Of a DNA stretch of 5,158 bases, positions 1 through 5,158 are shown piece after piece. The stretch covers positions 1-5,158 of the forward strand of contig QNDV01000221.1 of assembly GCA_003646045.1 (NCBI GenBank), written 5' to 3'. Under the pieces are notes generated by a model, which worked only from the letters and a program-made list of their open reading frames with translations, was not told the origin of the DNA and did not search any database. The position numbers and the translations under genes were made by a program. Source of the stretch: a bacterium. GTDB lineage: Bacteria > Krumholzibacteriota > Krumholzibacteria > LZORAL124-64-63. How positions within the stretch are numbered: the stretch's first letter is position 1; each line of letters starts with the position of its first letter.

Positions 1-99
1 ACCGATGATGACGGCCATGGGCTGCCACCAGGCGATGTCGGCCAATCCCAGACCGACCATGGTTCCAAAGCCGTCGACGAGGTTTTGCAGTATCTCCAT
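1..99 (-). CDS. tctA: TctA, large permease subunit of a tripartite tricarboxylate transporter (N-terminal 33 codons only)
   Basis: Only the N-terminus is inside the window; the frame is open to the left edge. It begins MEILQNLVDGFGTM, close to the usual start of TctA proteins (MEILxNLxxGFxxA), followed by the start of a hydrophobic segment (AWWQPMAVIIG). TctA is the roughly 500-residue, 12-helix inner-membrane permease that moves the solute handed over by the TctC binding protein, usually driven by an ion gradient. The ATG has a good ribosome site (GGAGAGG, about 5 nt upstream) and lies 13 nt after the stop of the TctC-TctB fusion, matching the common tctC-tctB-tctA order. The residue identity is based on a short stretch, but the neighbour makes the call strong. 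Whether the rest of the gene is intact cannot be seen. Confidence 0.85.
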   Translation of the reverse strand, partial: MEILQNLVDGFGTMVGLGLADIAWWQPMAVIIG

Positions 100-112
100 G
101 AAGCCTCTCCGC

Positions 113-1621
113 CTATTGGAACCAGACGCCGCCCGGCAAGGGCAGGCCCAGGGTCTTGATGAATACCAGATAACAGAAAGCAAGCATCGAGACGCCCACT
201 ACCGCGGCTTTGACGTGGTGCCGGTAGCCCATGGCGTAGATCCCGCCCAGCAGGAGAATCAGGGAGGACGGAAAGAACCCGGCCCGTGGCAGGAGAGCCA
301 CAAAGACCACCATCAGCAGAATGATGCCCAGCACCAGACCTACCCGGCCATGCTTGACCGGTTGGCCGGCTTTCATTCCCGTGACCGCCTGGAGTGCGGC
401 GAAGATCGCCAGAACCACGGCCCAGATCAGGGGAATGGTGGCCGGGCCCACACTTTGGCCCGGCGTTGGCTGGGGAAAAGTCCAGGCCAGGACCAGGAAC
501 GTCAGGGCCACCGCCAGAGCCGCGGCGGCCACCATCACCACACCTGTCGGTCGCTGCCGGCGGAAACCGAGGAGCAGGGCCAGCACCAGCCCCGTCACGA
601 CCGGCATGAACCAGGCCAAGAGGCGGATCCGGCGGGTCGCGGGGTCTTCTTCCGCGGACGCCAGGATCTGGGCCAACCGCAGGTATTTTACCGACTGCTC
701 GCTGTCACGGTTGACCAGGGCGGTGAACTCCTCGTGTTGGTAGAAGACCGCCTTGGCCGAATTCAATTCCACGAACCGGAGCCACTCGGGATCAGCCGCT
801 ACCTTGCCCAGTAAATCGTCCAGATAGGCCAACACGTCCGCTGGTGTGCCTTGGCGCACCGCGAAGCCCCGCCACATGATCTCGTTGGGCAGGTCACATC
901 CCGACTCGATCATGGTCGGTGTATCGGGAAACAGTTCCAGGCGCTCCAGCGTGGAGACGGCGGCGATGTGCAGATCGGGCCGGCCCTTGACGTCCTCGGG
1001 ATTGCCTACATAGACGGTGCCGTGTTTGCCGAGCAGGGCGGCGATGGCCTCGCCGCCACCGTCATAGGGTACCCAGGTGGCCGTAATGCCCAGCTTTTCC
1101 CAGGTCTTGATGGCCATCAGGTGATCCAGGCTGCCCACGCCGGGGCCAACCCAGATCTGGCGCCCCTGCTGGGCCCTGGCATCAGCCACGATGTCCTCGA
1201 ATGTAACCACATCACTGTGGCGGTTCGTGATCAGGGCCTCTGGTGCTTCGGTCAGGCAGGCCAGGAAGTGAAAATCGTCCATGCCGAAATTGCTCTGGGT
1301 GATCTTGACGGTGGAGATGAAGGTCGCCGGAGCCGCCAACAGGGTATAACCGTCGGCGGGTTTGCCCAGGACCGCACGCATGGCCACGGCCCCGGATCCG
1401 CCGAACCGGTTCTCGATGACCAGGGGCACGTCGATGTAGTTGCGGGCCACCTTGGCCACCACGCGCGCGGTCAGATCTATTGCCCCACCAGGCTTGGCAT
1501 GTACCACCACCACGATGGGTTTGTCCGGGTACTCGGCCCGGGCAACGGAAAAGGGCAGCCCCGTGGCCCCCAGGACCAGCAGGAGCAGAAGGTAGTACAC
1601 ACCGACCCGGTCCCGGCTCAT
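113..1621 (-). CDS. tctCB: TctC-TctB fusion: tethered solute-binding protein and small membrane subunit of a TTT transporter
   Basis: This single uninterrupted frame of 502 residues joins two subunits that are normally separate. Residues 1-29 form a signal peptide (hydrophobic YYLLLLLVLGATG, cleavage after ARA). Residues 30 to about 325 are a TctC/Bug-type periplasmic binding domain: YPDKPIVVVVHAKPGGAID (the PGGxxD loop), IENRFGGSGA, PADGYTL, GVGSLDHL (the second carboxylate-binding loop, GxGSxxH), YDGGGEAIAALLG, PTMIESG and WRGFAVRQGTP. Residues about 334-353 are an added membrane helix followed by a basic GFRRQRP patch. Residues about 360-502 match TctB: helix pairs with VGPATIP between the first two, an RAGFFP motif, and the typical C-terminal end LGLPLPGGVWF. 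The extra helix brings the chain back into the cytosol so the TctB part keeps its normal orientation. The start is supported by GGGAG about 10 nt upstream and by the signal peptide. Together with TctA next door it forms a complete TTT system. The substrate is unknown; the conserved loops suggest a carboxylate-bearing compound. Confidence 0.92.
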   Translation of the reverse strand: MSRDRVGVYYLLLLLVLGATGLPFSVARAEYPDKPIVVVVHAKPGGAIDLTARVVAKVARNYIDVPLVIENRFGGSGAVAMRAVLGKPADGYTLLAAPATFISTVKITQSNFGMDDFHFLACLTEAPEALITNRHSDVVTFEDIVADARAQQGRQIWVGPGVGSLDHLMAIKTWEKLGITATWVPYDGGGEAIAALLGKHGTVYVGNPEDVKGRPDLHIAAVSTLERLELFPDTPTMIESGCDLPNEIMWRGFAVRQGTPADVLAYLDDLLGKVAADPEWLRFVELNSAKAVFYQHEEFTALVNRDSEQSVKYLRLAQILASAEEDPATRRIRLLAWFMPVVTGLVLALLLGFRRQRPTGVVMVAAAALAVALTFLVLAWTFPQPTPGQSVGPATIPLIWAVVLAIFAALQAVTGMKAGQPVKHGRVGLVLGIILLMVVFVALLPRAGFFPSSLILLLGGIYAMGYRHHVKAAVVGVSMLAFCYLVFIKTLGLPLPGGVWFQ

Positions 1622-1686
1622 GAATCGTTCTCCCTTGCGGAGGTTTCCTGTGGTGCCCTGGGATTCTGGCGTCCTGAATTTTCCAT
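1618..1686 (-). other. possible 22-codon leader ORF overlapping the tctCB start
   Basis: An ATG at 1686-1684 opens a 22-codon frame (beginning MENSGRQNP) whose TGA overlaps the tctCB start codon as ATGA, the classic four-base overlap for translational coupling. The frame is short and polar and has no recognised family. The nearest purine-rich site (GGGAAG) is about 11 nt upstream of its ATG and sits in the 3' arm of a hairpin on the plus-strand numbering, so initiation is doubtful. It could be a chance frame in G+C-rich DNA. Confidence 0.25.
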
Positions 1687-1687
1687 C

Positions 1688-1793
1688 GCGGGACTATCTT
1701 CCCGCTCGTCGCAGCCGGGCCCATTTGCGGTTGGTGGCAGACTGGCTACCAGGACCGGTTCGGTACCAGTCCCGGGTCAGTCCCGACCCGACT
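1688..1793 (-). other. three hairpins in the spacer between the CYTH-like gene and tctCB
   Basis: This spacer holds three inverted repeats in a row. Positions 1773-1778 (CGGGTC) pair with 1785-1790 across a 6-nt loop, with three more pairs (1768-1770 with 1791-1793) beyond a 2-nt bulge. Positions 1742-1750 pair with 1762-1769 as eight base pairs with one bulged base. Positions 1688-1693 (GCGGGA) pair with 1700-1705 across a 6-nt loop. The first lies directly after the TGA of the CYTH-like gene. None is followed by a T-run on the minus strand, so they are not classical intrinsic terminators. They may stabilise or process the mRNA or tune expression between the two halves of the cluster. Confidence 0.45.
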
Positions 1794-1794
1794 C

Positions 1795-2433
1795 TCAGGA
1801 ATTGGCCAGGTCCTTGTCGATCCAACCGATCACCCGCTTGATGGCCTGCAGGTAGTTGATGTTCTCCACGCCGGTCAGGCCAGTGTCCTCGAGGGTCTTC
1901 TTGATGTCGTCGAGCTCGGTGGATTCGGAGTTGATGGTCACGACCCTGGCGCCGTTGATCAGGACCTTGGCCACTTCGCAGATGGTATCGTTGACCATGT
2001 AGCCGAAGCGGTGCTTGTGGACCTTGACGGCCTGCAGGTCGGGATGGGCTTCGATCATGGCCAGGAACTCCGCCACCGTGTAGGTCTCCTGGTCGAACGC
2101 CGGGGGCGTGACCTGGAAGGCCGGGAACACGTCGTCGGTCAGGGTCTTGGCGGCGATGGGAAATTCGCCCTTCATGAGGGGATTCCACTGCTCCAGCCCG
2201 TCCTGTTCGGTGACGAAGGTCTTGATGTCCATCTTGCCGTCACGGAGCTTGGTGTTGTTGGCGTCGTTGGTGCGGGACATGATGTAGATCTCGTCCGATG
2301 TGCGCTCCCATACCTTCTTCGGCACCGGCATGGACAGCCGTGCCATGAGGTGGGCCGCCGCGGTAAAATCCTGCCCGAAGGTGCGGAACTCGAAGCGGGG
2401 CTTGGAGATCTCCCCGATCTTCATTTCAGCCAT
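1795..2433 (-). CDS. CYTH-like (triphosphate-tunnel type) cytosolic protein, divergent
   Basis: A 212-residue soluble protein with no signal peptide or membrane helix. I do not recognise a named gene, but the order of elements resembles the CYTH / triphosphate tunnel metalloenzyme fold. A first strand (KPRFEFRTFG, residues 11-20) is followed by a helix (QDFTAAAHLMARL), then DEIYIM, then a basic strand pair NNTKLRDGKMDIKTFV (residues 59-74; K62, R64, K67, K71) and LEQWNPL. Later come VKVHKHRFGYM (residues 137-146), a strand with VVTINSES (164-171) followed by a helix STELDDIKKTLEDTGL, and a final NYLQAIKRVIGW. CYTH proteins bind or hydrolyse triphosphate compounds such as thiamine triphosphate, inorganic triphosphate or ATP (cyclase). 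Here the N-terminal ExExK signature is only partly kept (FEFR), and the late acidic pair is reduced to one glutamate (SES), so catalysis is uncertain. The start ATG is preceded only by a weak GAGTG; an ATG three codons later is an alternative. Its place between a phosphate-type porin/permease and a TTT transporter suggests a phosphate-related or sensing role, by inference. Confidence 0.6.
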   Translation of the reverse strand: MAEMKIGEISKPRFEFRTFGQDFTAAAHLMARLSMPVPKKVWERTSDEIYIMSRTNDANNTKLRDGKMDIKTFVTEQDGLEQWNPLMKGEFPIAAKTLTDDVFPAFQVTPPAFDQETYTVAEFLAMIEAHPDLQAVKVHKHRFGYMVNDTICEVAKVLINGARVVTINSESTELDDIKKTLEDTGLTGVENINYLQAIKRVIGWIDKDLANS

Positions 2434-2451
2434 GATTCACTCTGTCTTTCC

Positions 2452-2465
2452 GGAGCCGCAGCTCC
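2452..2465 (-). other. small hairpin upstream of the CYTH-like gene
   Basis: A 5-bp inverted repeat (GGAGC, 4-nt loop, GCTCC) lies about 18 nt before the ATG of the CYTH-like gene. It ends just short of the weak ribosome site and could influence its exposure. It is short, so chance is possible. Confidence 0.3.
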
Positions 2466-2480
2466 CTGGGGAGTCCGGGT

Positions 2481-2512
2481 GATCCGGGGCCGACTGGTGC
2501 CGACCCCGGATC
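2481..2512 (-). other. strong intercistronic hairpin after the porin gene
   Basis: A 12-nt inverted repeat (arms 2501-2512 and 2481-2492) encloses an 8-nt loop. Eleven positions are Watson-Crick. The twelfth is C-A on the plus strand but U-G in the minus-strand RNA, so the full stem forms only in the operon transcript. It starts 18 nt past the porin TAG and is very G+C-rich. No T-run follows on the minus strand, so it is not a standard Rho-independent terminator. A role in protecting the 3' end of the abundant porin message, or as a pause/attenuation site before the downstream genes, is plausible. Confidence 0.6.
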
Positions 2513-2530
2513 CGGTGTGCCACAGGCTGC

Positions 2531-3847
2531 CTAGAAGGCGGTCTGGAAGCGCATCTGCAGATAGCTGAAGTCGTAGTCACCGAAGAACTGGTCGTCCTTG
2601 CCGGTGGCAAACTCGTCGTTATCGACCATGCCGTAGTTCATCATCAACTTGACGTTGGGGTTGGGGTAGTAGTTGACGCCGATGGTGTAGGAGGTGGAGC
2701 CACCGTTCTGCTCGTCGGCATCCACATCGTTCAGGTCGACGGTGGAGTAGCGCACGGCCACTTCCCAGGCGCCGCCCTTGCTGTTGGGGGTCACCCGCGC
2801 GAACTCGGCGTCCTTGTGGTCGTACTTGTGGGAGTCGTCGGTCAGGAAGTAGCTGACGAAACCGTACCCACCGTTGTAGGAGATGCTCTCGCGGTTGTCG
2901 GTGGGGTCATCGCTCGCGTTGCGATCGATGTTGGTCATCATGTACTCGCCCTGTACCAAGAAGCGCTTGTTCTGGTAGGCCACTTCACCGCCGAAGCTGC
3001 TGAACTTGTCGATGTCCTTGATCTTGGCGTACACGAACTTGGTGTCCGAGACATTGCTCTCCGGGCGCGTGTTGAACTTGACGCTCGACGGATCCTTCTC
3101 GCCTTCGAAGTTGCCGATGAACGTGGGCTTCTGCATCGTGCCGGAGCCGCCGACCATCAGGACGCTATCGTCGGTAAGGATCGGGGACCAGTTGACGCGG
3201 GCCGCGAAGTTGATCTGCTCGTCGGCTTCCTTGAAGTATTCATCGACGTCGGCGCCGAAGACCGAGGCGGCCCAACGGAACTTGGGCATCCACTGGGCAA
3301 CCTCGAGACCCATGCGACGGCCAACCACGAAGGGCTCGGTGCCCTGGCTGCGCTCCATGAACATCAGGTTGCGGCTGGTGGTACTTTCTTCCAGACCGTT
3401 GGGCTGGCGGAAGTTACCGACCCGCACGTGACCATTGCCACCGAACAGGCCCCGGTAGCTGATATAGGCGTCCTTGACGGCGGTGGCTTCCTCGGCGAAG
3501 TCCAGGTCGATCTCGCCGTACCAGTCGTGCCACAGCTGTGACTTCAGCGCGAAGCGCGCCCGGCGCAGGATCACGCCGCCAGTCAGGCTGTTCTGCATCT
3601 CGGCGAGGTCCTCGTAGTCGCCGTAGTCATCGCTGGCGGGGTTGTACAGCGGAGCGTCGTCGAAGTAGCTGGCAACATCCAGATACACGCGGGCATCGAC
3701 CCACCATTTGAAGGCGCTGTCGTCGGACTCGAAGACCAGGATGCCATCTTCGGCAGTGGCGTTCAGGGTTGCCGAATCGGCAAACGCGGAACCGGCCAAT
3801 GCGACCAGAAAAGCCACAGTAGCCAACTTGACCAACATACTACGCAT
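2531..3847 (-). CDS. outer-membrane porin of the phosphate-selective OprO/OprP family
   Basis: The 438-residue protein starts with a Sec signal peptide (MRSMLVKLATVAFLVALAGSAFA, about 23 residues, cleavage AFA|DS) and ends in Phe within RFQTAF, the usual outer-membrane beta-barrel insertion signal. Family features in order: RRARFALKSQLW and WYGEIDLDFAEE (about 95-120), the AYISYRG strand, VRVGNFRQPNGLEEST (about 141-156), FMERSQ and VVGRRMGLEV (about 163-183), WEVAVRYSTVDLND (361-374), and YTIGVNYYPNPNVKLMMNYG (387-406). OprP and OprO form trimeric anion channels specific for phosphate and polyphosphate in Pseudomonas; many homologues elsewhere have unknown specificity. Acidic stretches (for example DDYGDYED, DVDADE) are frequent, mainly in likely loops, so phosphate selectivity should not be assumed. 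The ATG has a strong ribosome site (AAGGAGAG, about 8 nt upstream). The gene lies 38 nt after PiT, which fits an outer plus inner membrane uptake pair. Confidence 0.92.
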   Translation of the reverse strand: MRSMLVKLATVAFLVALAGSAFADSATLNATAEDGILVFESDDSAFKWWVDARVYLDVASYFDDAPLYNPASDDYGDYEDLAEMQNSLTGGVILRRARFALKSQLWHDWYGEIDLDFAEEATAVKDAYISYRGLFGGNGHVRVGNFRQPNGLEESTTSRNLMFMERSQGTEPFVVGRRMGLEVAQWMPKFRWAASVFGADVDEYFKEADEQINFAARVNWSPILTDDSVLMVGGSGTMQKPTFIGNFEGEKDPSSVKFNTRPESNVSDTKFVYAKIKDIDKFSSFGGEVAYQNKRFLVQGEYMMTNIDRNASDDPTDNRESISYNGGYGFVSYFLTDDSHKYDHKDAEFARVTPNSKGGAWEVAVRYSTVDLNDVDADEQNGGSTSYTIGVNYYPNPNVKLMMNYGMVDNDEFATGKDDQFFGDYDFSYLQMRFQTAF

Positions 3848-3876
3848 TACGAACTCTCCTTGCTTTGGGTAAACAT
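3847..3876 (-). other. possible 9-codon leader ORF coupled to the porin start
   Basis: Between PiT and the porin, an ATG at 3876-3874 has a strong Shine-Dalgarno (AGGAG at 3883-3887, 6-nt spacing) and encodes MFTQSKESS. Its TAA shares its last A with the porin ATG (TAATG). The AGGAG overlaps the PiT stop codon, and the ATG is in the same frame as PiT, four codons after its TAG. The small frame runs through the porin's own ribosome site. A ribosome finishing it would stop exactly on the porin start, so it may couple porin translation to PiT. It is seen directly in the sequence; its function is inference. Confidence 0.4.
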
Positions 3877-3885
3877 AGGCGGCTC

Positions 3886-5158
3886 CTAAGGCTGCCCATC
3901 CGTTTTGTCCATCTTGAACACGCGGTACAAGAAGGACAGCTTACTACTCAAATCCTTGTTCCAGATCTTGTTGGTGGTCGCCCGGGGGCGGTATTCCCAA
4001 TCGGGCGAAACCTCGGCCAACGCCTGGTGGAACTGCCAGGCATGTTCGAAACTCCTGCCCTCGAGCGAACGCAGGGCAGTCAACTGTTCCTGACTGAACC
4101 AATGCTTGTCCACTTCCTGGGCGATGACTTCAGCCGTCACGACCCAGTAGCCCAGATGTGACAATTCCAGGATCTTTTCGACCTCGGCCCCGGACAAACC
4201 CGTTTCCTTCTCCAAGCGGGACTTCATGGTCAGGGGGTTAGTGAAAACCACATCGATGATTTCGGTCAACCCTTCATCCTGGATGCCCCGTTGTTCCAAT
4301 TCCTCCGTAACCGACCAGTCAAGGACATAGCTTTCGACCTCGTTGACTTTCTGGTCGAACACGTTGTCCACCACGAAGAGCATCAGAAAGGCGATCACGC
4401 CGGCCATGAGCGGCGTGGCGACCCAGCCCAGGGAAATCTCCCCCAGTACCCGATAGCGGATCCCGGTACCCCGGAAAAGGCTGATACCGAGGATCGCACC
4501 CACCACGGCCTGGCTACTGCTGACCGGGACCAGGGGGAAAGTGGGCAGACCATGGCTGGCAAGAAAATGCTCCAGCCCCTGGGAGGCGAACAGGAAAAGG
4601 GTGATGGACTGGGCCAGGACAATGACCAGTGCGGGTACCGGGGAAATTTTCACCAGGCCGCTGCCGACGGTGCCCATGACTCTTTCGGAATAGGTAAAAA
4701 CCCCGACCGCAATGGCGACAGCGCCGATGAAGAAGAGCTGCTGCACCCCCGTAATGACGAAGAGGCCGAAGAAGTCGAGATCGGTAAAGGGGTTGTCGGG
4801 CACGAAAACACCCATGACATTGGCGATATTGTTGGCACCCAGGCTGTAGGAACCGAAGGCGCCCACCAGCAGCAGGCCCAACCTGGTCATGGCGTCAAGC
4901 CTCAGCAGATGGGGCTTGCTGATCTTCAACAGCCAGCGCACCAGAATGAACGTCACCACCGCCACGAAGGCGGATATCAACGGGCAGGCCACCCAGGTGG
5001 TCACGATCTTGGTCAGCGAAGCGGTGTCGGTCACCGACGACGAGTAGATGTTCCAGCCGATGATGGCGCCGACTATGGATTGGCTGGTGGAGACGGGTAT
5101 CCTCAGTCTTGTCATCCAGAAGGTGGTCAGGGCCGCGGCCAGGGCCACGGTGAAGGAC
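3886..5158 (-). CDS. PiT-family inorganic phosphate (or related anion) permease with C-terminal cytosolic extension, N-terminus outside window
   Basis: The frame is open to the right edge; 423 residues are visible and the first codons of the gene are missing. PiT proteins have two inverted repeats, each with a GAND-type motif and a PVSTTH-type motif. Here the first repeat shows PVSTSQSIVGAIIG (about residues 21-34 of the visible part) and the second shows YSLGANNIANVMG (104-116) and PVSSSQAVVGAILG (211-224). The first GAND motif would lie beyond the edge. About seven hydrophobic helices are visible. PiT permeases carry phosphate with H+ or Na+; some members carry sulfate. The second motif has Asn in place of the usual Asp, and both PVST-type motifs end in Gln rather than His, so substrate or coupling may differ. 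Residues about 264-423 are a charged cytosolic tail that includes an SRLEKETGLSGAEVEKILEL helical stretch and is unusual for short bacterial PiT proteins. It precedes the porin by 38 nt, suggesting co-expression. Confidence 0.88.
   Translation of the reverse strand, partial: SFTVALAAALTTFWMTRLRIPVSTSQSIVGAIIGWNIYSSSVTDTASLTKIVTTWVACPLISAFVAVVTFILVRWLLKISKPHLLRLDAMTRLGLLLVGAFGSYSLGANNIANVMGVFVPDNPFTDLDFFGLFVITGVQQLFFIGAVAIAVGVFTYSERVMGTVGSGLVKISPVPALVIVLAQSITLFLFASQGLEHFLASHGLPTFPLVPVSSSQAVVGAILGISLFRGTGIRYRVLGEISLGWVATPLMAGVIAFLMLFVVDNVFDQKVNEVESYVLDWSVTEELEQRGIQDEGLTEIIDVVFTNPLTMKSRLEKETGLSGAEVEKILELSHLGYWVVTAEVIAQEVDKHWFSQEQLTALRSLEGRSFEHAWQFHQALAEVSPDWEYRPRATTNKIWNKDLSSKLSFLYRVFKMDKTDGQP

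Follow-up and report, generated by a model that had tools for sequence, protein, structure and literature searches.

In the 5,158-nt stretch of bacterial DNA analyzed here (contig QNDV01000221.1; "the window"), a periplasmic-type binding protein, TctC, and a small membrane subunit, TctB, are encoded as one polypeptide within what is, judging by its gene content, a conserved phosphate/polyphosphate module. The fusion is genuine, ancient and widely retained, and the system belongs to the TTT family (TC 2.A.80) by its three subunits TctC, TctB and TctA. The phosphate neighborhood, of which an earlier note on this DNA made no mention, is a larger result than the fusion itself. Taken together, the fused system is probably a membrane-tethered TTT importer working within this module on a phosphorus oxyanion, be it phosphate, pyrophosphate or short polyphosphate.

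All recognizable genes of the window, namely those for a PiT/PHO4 transporter, a porin O/P, a 212-aa protein, the fusion and TctA, are on the minus strand (Table 1). The earlier note had described a TctC-TctB fusion in a single frame with a signal peptide, a complete TctB and a downstream tctA; each of these features was recovered at the coordinates it gave, the minus strand being left unstated there. Specifically, the 502-aa ORF covered positions 2–264 of the 274 of the Pfam TctC profile and 4–137 of the 137 of the TctB profile, scoring well above the respective cut-offs of 27 and 29.1 bits, and it ends LPLPGG; an NCBIfam profile search of the fusion gave no family above its own cut-off. Hydropathy peaks were found at residues 6–24, 334–352, 361–379, 395–413, 427–445 and 470–488, the first lying in a signal-peptide-like start whose cleavage site we place after ARA, assuming the AxA rule. 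The AlphaFold2 model (47-row alignment, mean pLDDT 89.3) contained a TctC-like domain and a helix at 327–354 separate from one at 360–379, followed by helices at 395–417, 427–447, 449–463 and 469–490. Foldseek searches with this model returned TctC/Bug-type structures at ranks 1–17, TctB structures being absent from the best 50 matches. The fusion stop codon is separated by 13 nt from the start of tctA (position 99), which runs off the end of the window.

Table 1. Features of the window, with positions numbered from its first nucleotide.
Feature	Position	Strand	Basis
tctA start, 33 codons, cut by window end	1..99	-	tblastn to L001 TctA, 62% over 32 aa
tctCB fusion gene	113..1621	-	502 aa, ATG start; Pfam TctC + TctB
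TctB domain, residues 365–496	134..529	-	PF07331, 63.2 bits
Positive patch, presumably cytoplasmic, residues 352–361, GFRRQRPTGV	539..568	-	K/R counts
Connecting membrane helix, residues 327–354	560..643	-	AlphaFold2; hydropathy; homologous helix in separate TctB of L146/L147
TctC binding domain, residues 52–309	695..1468	-	PF03401, 97.3 bits
Ligand loop H41-A42-K43-P44-G45-G46-A47-I48-D49	1475..1501	-	Column comparison of TctC rows
Signal-peptide-like N-terminus, residues 1–29, ending ARA	1535..1621	-	Hydrophobic segment 6–24; AlphaFold2 helix 3–21
212-aa divergent triphosphate-tunnel (CYTH-like) protein	1795..2433	-	AlphaFold2 + Foldseek
Phosphate-selective porin O/P family	2531..3847	-	PF07396, 179.5 bits
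PiT/PHO4 phosphate transporter, cut by window end	3886..5157	-	PF01384, 140.9 bits

Among the 7998 scored candidates sharing most words, 271 were homologues of the fusion at E up to 1e-3, and 120 of these, including the window protein (P0001), were listed. Both Pfam domains were present in 115 of the 120 matches listed, at identities down to 39%, while the remaining five carried one domain: P0119 stops inside the connecting helix, P0100 and P0108 stop within the TctB part, and the matches of P0090 and P0102 are confined to roughly the final 60% of the fusion query. The organism names among the matches listed included Krumholzibacteria, KSB1, Calditrichaeota, Caldithrix, Zixibacteria and, for a partial protein, Bacteroidales, to which the record titles of loci add Eisenbacteria and Krumholzibacteriia. 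By the nearest relatives that bear a name, the window probably comes from a bacterium of Krumholzibacteria/Eisenbacteria type. The fusion was carried by 11 of 80 genomes in the phylum of genome G002, by 7 of 40 in that of G441 (the copy in G545 being cut by a contig end) and by 1 of 20 in that of G001. It occurred in three of 386 relatives of G001, 37 of which gave any match (E up to 1e-3), and among 383 relatives of G221 searched at E up to 1e-60 only G221 itself matched. In all 12 carrier genomes tested, the fusion was the sole TctC over the family cut-off and TctA was found at one locus (in two pieces at contig ends in G077). All 20 carrier genomes searched for TctA (PF01970) gave a match, truncated at contig ends in three of them (G068, G077 and G539); the full-length TctA of L001 scored 491 bits.

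In a comparison of the window with three relatives, substitutions were commonest at codon position 3 in the TctC, junction and TctB parts alike, the junction (47 codons) being the least constrained stretch. The frameshift or stop between residues 320 and 360 against which the earlier note had advised a check is contradicted by this coding pattern and by conservation across homologues. A sequencing or assembly artefact (a missed stop or frameshift) is thus ruled out for practical purposes, and is extremely improbable given the 115 two-domain proteins among the 120 listed, the recurrence of the fused frame in genomes of two phyla and a third-position substitution pattern that runs across the junction. 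Some apparent fusions elsewhere were discarded. In Alphaproteobacteria, three loci matching most of the query (L025, L029 and L046) had separate TctB frames of 144, 159 and 148 aa and no two-domain frame, and the fusion suggested by frame lengths in G240 was in fact a 326-aa TctC next to a 174-aa TctB. Of 859 plasmid records matching the fusion, five spanned 80% or more of the query, and in each of these the match falls under two annotated genes.

The genes around the fusion were scanned by tblastn with proteins from the window and from loci L001, L002, L098, L118 and L119. The scan covered 21 distinct fused loci (the window, L096–L107, L118, L119 and L138–L143, with L001–L006 dropped as duplicates) and 92 control TctC loci (74 and 18 from two sets), 91 of these being unfused and one, L135, fused in a different way. 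Any of NptA, PiT, PhoU-like (PF01865), porin O/P, Ppx/GppA, CYTH-like or CYTH was counted as a phosphate gene, and several of the neighbors were checked against Pfam in L001, L002, L098, L118 and L119. Phosphate genes were found near 20 of the 21 fused-clade loci versus 1 of the 92 controls (L124, an NptA-like match; Fisher p 5.5e-20, shared ancestry ignored), although the 20 are not independent events since the loci share ancestry, and detection was favored in fused loci because the query proteins came from them. The exception, L101, had no phosphate gene on its 7.6-kb contig and an NptA-like gene on another contig of its genome. Counted gene by gene over the 21 loci, CYTH-like occurred in 13, PiT and porin O/P in 12 each, PhoU-like and CYTH in 11 each, NptA in 8 and Ppx/GppA in 3. 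Given the kinship and query bias carried by the p value, the case for a phosphate module rests more on its recurrence in distant relatives: with changed gene order in L118, where the fusion is 45% identical; in part, as CYTH and CYTH-like only, in L119 (32%); and in both loci of the unfused sister clade discussed below, L146 and L147, each of which has CYTH-like, CYTH, TctC, TctB and TctA genes, L146 also having PhoU-like and PiT. The porins OprP and OprO are described as serving the uptake of phosphate or pyrophosphate (PMC9769906).

Profile searches with the 212-aa protein gave no match in Pfam (E up to 1) and none above the family cut-offs in NCBIfam. Its AlphaFold2 model (pLDDT 87.2, eight strands) matched TTM/CYTH-type entries at Foldseek ranks 1–22, including thiamine triphosphatase and the AtTTM3 tripolyphosphatase, with modest query TM-scores of 0.39–0.50; entries labeled adenylate cyclase or hypothetical are presumably CYTH members too. 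With 3428 homologues at E up to 1e-3, and further copies at L001:4407-4997, L118:7447-8031 and L119:13226-13837, the family appears, from the predicted fold, to be a branch of CYTH/TTM that has escaped cataloguing. Near fused loci a Pfam CYTH gene recurs in addition to this CYTH-like one, and CYTH proteins include inorganic triphosphatases (PMC3440374; PMC8233210).

Several other features recur in these neighborhoods. A PhnD-type (PF12974) protein is encoded by 10 of the 21 fused loci (e.g. L002:1-3628 and L118:3353-7142), usually beside a histidine kinase and an NtrC-type regulator, and is placed as if it were the sensor of the adjoining kinase. An NptA-type Na/Pi cotransporter with a PhoU domain and a long, exported-looking N-terminal extension (L002:3878-5980 and homologues, e.g. 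L003:1867-3999) lies directly upstream of the fusion, with a 4-base overlap in L002. Lipoprotein-like genes adjoining porin O/P (L096:12760-13761 (-), L104:5553-6083 (-) and L118:15587-16897 (+)) share a motif resembling N-E-(L/F)-(L/M)-A-S-N-D, which we take to be lamin-tail-like. At L118:8095-8493, the CYTH-like and CYTH genes are separated by a DUF498 (PF04430) gene. In another record, P0200 (335 aa), a Ppx/GppA domain runs into the start of a TctC signal peptide and domain, perhaps as a frameshifted reading of neighbors, and documents ppx-tctCB adjacency. Scanning for sigma-54 (-24/-12) sites with at most three mismatches gave none in six stretches, and a sigma-70/terminator scan of window positions 1500-4000 gave counts near those of shuffled sequences.

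The PhnD-type protein would suit an importer of phosphonate or organophosphate in place of inorganic phosphate or polyphosphate. This reading is nevertheless improbable: the protein, encoded beside a kinase, may act as a sensor; inspection by eye of the ORF lists of the examined loci revealed neither a C-P lyase nor a phosphonatase gene; and the recurring enzymes belong to triphosphatase/polyphosphatase families.

The ligand loop also sets the fused proteins apart. In described TctCs, a loop P-F-x-A-G-G-x-x-D closes around the carboxylate, with the Phe docking the carbon chain of the substrate, and the motif is reported as almost ubiquitous (PMC5812351). Loop columns were compared across 112 fused, 13 near-unfused and 165 other TctC rows. 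In the fused proteins G-G (or G-S) and D are kept, P-F is replaced by H-(A/T/S) and x by K: H41 was present in 110/112 and K43 in 111/112, and position 42 was A, T, S, N or V and aromatic in 0/112, followed mostly by P-G-G/S-x-x-D. The loop of L119, the most divergent of the fused proteins examined, still reads H-S-K. Position 42 was aromatic (F/Y/W) in 108/165 other TctCs, in which H41 was found in 35/165 and K43 in 1/165; the P of the motif was absent in 93/165 of them too, making the motif a signature and not a strict requirement. The near-unfused rows showed Tyr41 in 13/13, an aromatic residue 42 in 0/13 and K43 in 1/13, so that a non-aromatic position 42 is common to the fused proteins, all 13 near-unfused rows and 57/165 others. 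K43, being also present in the unfused sister locus L147, in that one near-unfused row and in the single other TctC, is not strictly fusion-specific, and neither is R251, which all fused and near-unfused rows share but which is found in 55/165 others as well.

These observations bear on the main rival, namely that the fused TTT still carries a citrate-like carboxylate and that the linkage reflects co-regulation, for example the re-uptake of organic acids that free mineral phosphate, or carbon-phosphorus balance. Linkage of genes is no proof of a substrate, as a carrier of carboxylates could share its regulation with phosphate genes; moreover, the TTT ligands named in a review are carboxylates or similar compounds (PMC5812351), and the fused proteins keep the TctC fold and the GG-x-x-D core. 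Against this, the aromatic docking residue is absent and H41/K43 are present, the CYTH/TTM, porin O/P and Ppx/GppA neighbors point to phosphoanhydrides, and no recurring carbon-metabolism gene was recognized by eye in the ORF lists of the examined loci. A retained carboxylate substrate is rather unlikely, and the substrate would more probably be a phosphorus oxyanion.

The origin of the fusion could be followed in a sister clade in which the two genes are separate. A search restricted to shorter proteins found close unfused relatives of the TctC domain of 309–336 aa and 41–51% identity; 13 of them formed the near-unfused rows (P0124, P0126-P0130 and P0132-P0138). In a binding-protein tree of 86 domains (46 of the 112 fused, all 13 near-unfused and 27 of the 165 others), the fused rows formed one clade, the unfused sister clade had support of 95/64 and the two together 100/99. 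Support for the fused clade itself was only 67/72, which we count against the best explanation. Two sister-clade loci, L146 and L147, were found among 396 genomes (E up to 1e-70), each with separate tctC and tctB genes and a TctB of 183 aa. Both TctBs have an extra N-terminal hydrophobic helix (13–31) and positive patch that align with the helix and patch of the fusion, whereas in nine control separate TctBs judged by eye (L019, L024, L025, L029, L034, L044, L046, L052 and L079), and likewise in that of L148, the first hydrophobic stretch was TctB helix 1. Upstream of these sister genes, a divergent gene that is LysR-like by eye (L146:6955-7923 (-) and L147:841-1776 (-)) replaces the PhnD-kinase-NtrC set.

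The extra membrane helix that the earlier note had placed at about 334–353 is supported both by the hydropathy peak at 334–352 and by the modeled helix at 327–354, and among 112 full-length fused proteins (P0002-P0118, i.e. 117 ids, minus six dropped for length, plus the window) it attains a Kyte-Doolittle hydropathy of 1.6 in 111. The positive patch GFRRQRP that the note had read after it is present, the loop following the helix containing at least two K/R in 112/112 fused proteins (mean 3.42). The mean K+R counts of the following two loops were 0.80 and then 2.83, which fits an outside-in crossing at the connecting helix and an inside start of TctB helix 1, although the picture is less clean for the stretch preceding the connecting helix, in which positive charge is fairly high too (mean 2.75 K+R and 2.04 D+E). 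The topology predicted from these counts thus has TctC in the periplasm, helix 327–354 crossing from outside to inside and the patch inside. By the same simple charge rule, 10 of 11 control TctB frames (13 with a match, two dropped for length) were N-in, so that direct joining of an ordinary four-helix TctB to a periplasmic TctC would not have worked.

The proposal that the helix was added to correct this topology is not supported, since a homologous helix and patch already stand at the N-terminus of the separate TctB in both sister loci found. The TctB partner looks pre-adapted for fusion: with its N-terminus probably outside already, only the joining of TctC to TctB would have been needed, tctC being joined to a neighboring tctB that bore the extra helix. 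The tctC-tctB-tctA order, which the earlier note had suggested as the route to the fusion, finds backing in L147, where tctC and tctB share one reading frame and are 24 nt apart.

A second, distant type of TctC-TctB fusion was found in two loci. L135:9148-10437 (-) encodes a 447-aa protein with TctC at 34–313 and TctB model positions 40–144 of 149, and was the only two-domain frame among all 92 control loci scanned; L149:2517-3800 (-), from genome G242, encodes 462 aa with TctB model positions 31–144 of 149. In both, TctA is nearby, the TctC is about 27% identical to that of the window, the TctB part starts at helix 2 and the loop is ordinary (S-A-G-G / D-A-G-G). Their start has a nearby Cys, which we take to be lipoprotein-like by the lipobox rule. 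The two fusions are taken to be independent of the present family. With one helix fewer in L135 and L149 and one more in the present family, the membrane crossings fit a periplasmic TctC either way, and the absence of TctB helix 1 in place of an extra helix upholds the parity argument made in the earlier note, that a direct fusion would put the N-terminus of TctB on the wrong side. No phosphate gene was found near L135 (19.9 kb) or L149 (6.9 kb), so the phosphate link is a property of the present clade and not of fusion as such.

The preferred reading, uptake of a phosphorus oxyanion, would work as follows. Porin O/P would pass phosphate-type anions through the outer membrane. The signal peptide would export the TctC domain, which would stay in the periplasm, its C-terminus leading into a membrane helix crossing from outside to inside and then into the four-helix TctB, and the TctB part would pair with the TctA encoded next door. 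The tethered TctC domain would capture the anion for import by TctA on an ion gradient, the ion coupling being that expected of the TTT family; CYTH/TTM and Ppx/GppA enzymes would hydrolyze it, and PiT/PhoU-like or NptA proteins would handle the free phosphate. The tether may alter ligand capture and stoichiometry, as the earlier note had proposed, its likely benefit being a fixed 1:1 ratio with TctB and a high local concentration, as has been argued for lipid-anchored TAXI SBPs (PMC11574862). A more tentative form of this reading, possible but not the one favored, is that the whole TTT branch has switched to short-chain inorganic polyphosphate or pyrophosphate, comprising porin O/P, the tethered TctC-TctB, TctA, CYTH/TTM triphosphatases with Ppx, and PiT/NptA for the released phosphate; triphosphate and citrate are roughly comparable as multivalent anions.

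Compared with known systems, the fusion shares with classical TctCBA/Bug TTT transporters the TctC fold, TctB, TctA and the C-B-A gene order. It differs from them in that the classical binding protein is free and separate, no phosphate gene was found at 91 of the 92 control loci, and the F/Y/W docking residue of 108/165 other TctCs is absent from all 112 fused ones. The sister clade is alike in its CYTH-like, CYTH, TctC, TctB and TctA module and its extra-helix TctB, and differs in its separate tctC and tctB, its Tyr41 and its LysR-like gene. L135 and L149 have TctC and TctB in one frame but differ in the start of TctB at helix 2, the lipoprotein-like N-terminus, the ordinary loop and the absence of a phosphate gene nearby. 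GlnPQ and OpuA, ABC importers with fused substrate-binding domains, also have tethered binding domains but are ATP-driven and unrelated to the TTT fusion. A TctA-TctB fusion reported in Paraburkholderia caribensis (PMC5812351) likewise joins two TTT subunits, but both are membrane subunits and the binding protein is not included. In TRAP DctQM fusions an extra helix makes the topology work (PMC5812351), which is the same solution applied to Q and M, without a binding protein. TAXI-GltS fusions of Lachnospiraceae (PMC12344293) and lipid-anchored TAXI SBPs (PMC11574862; Roden 2023 as cited there) also tether or fuse a binding protein to a secondary transporter, but from other SBP and membrane families; in the present, phosphate-linked system the small subunit is what the binding protein is joined to. 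A search of open-access PMC literature, with subscription journals mostly outside its scope, gave no report of a TctC-TctB fusion, and the PMC titles and abstract beginnings covered gave no paper linking TTT to polyphosphate; a TTT system with its receptor covalently joined to TctB is, as far as these open-access searches show, apparently undescribed.

The fusion holds receptor and TctB at a 1:1 ratio, and structural studies of TTT coupling could use it as a naturally occurring construct. Its evolutionary record is unusually clear, one fusion having apparently been made topologically free by an extra-helix TctB and a distant second type having met the same parity constraint with one helix fewer. 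Because the fusion sits among phosphate/polyphosphate genes, a branch of the "tricarboxylate" family may carry a phosphate-type nutrient. For this orphan clade of transporters, spread over several phyla that are mostly uncultured, the linkage supplies a specific hypothesis on the ligand that would be cheap to test.
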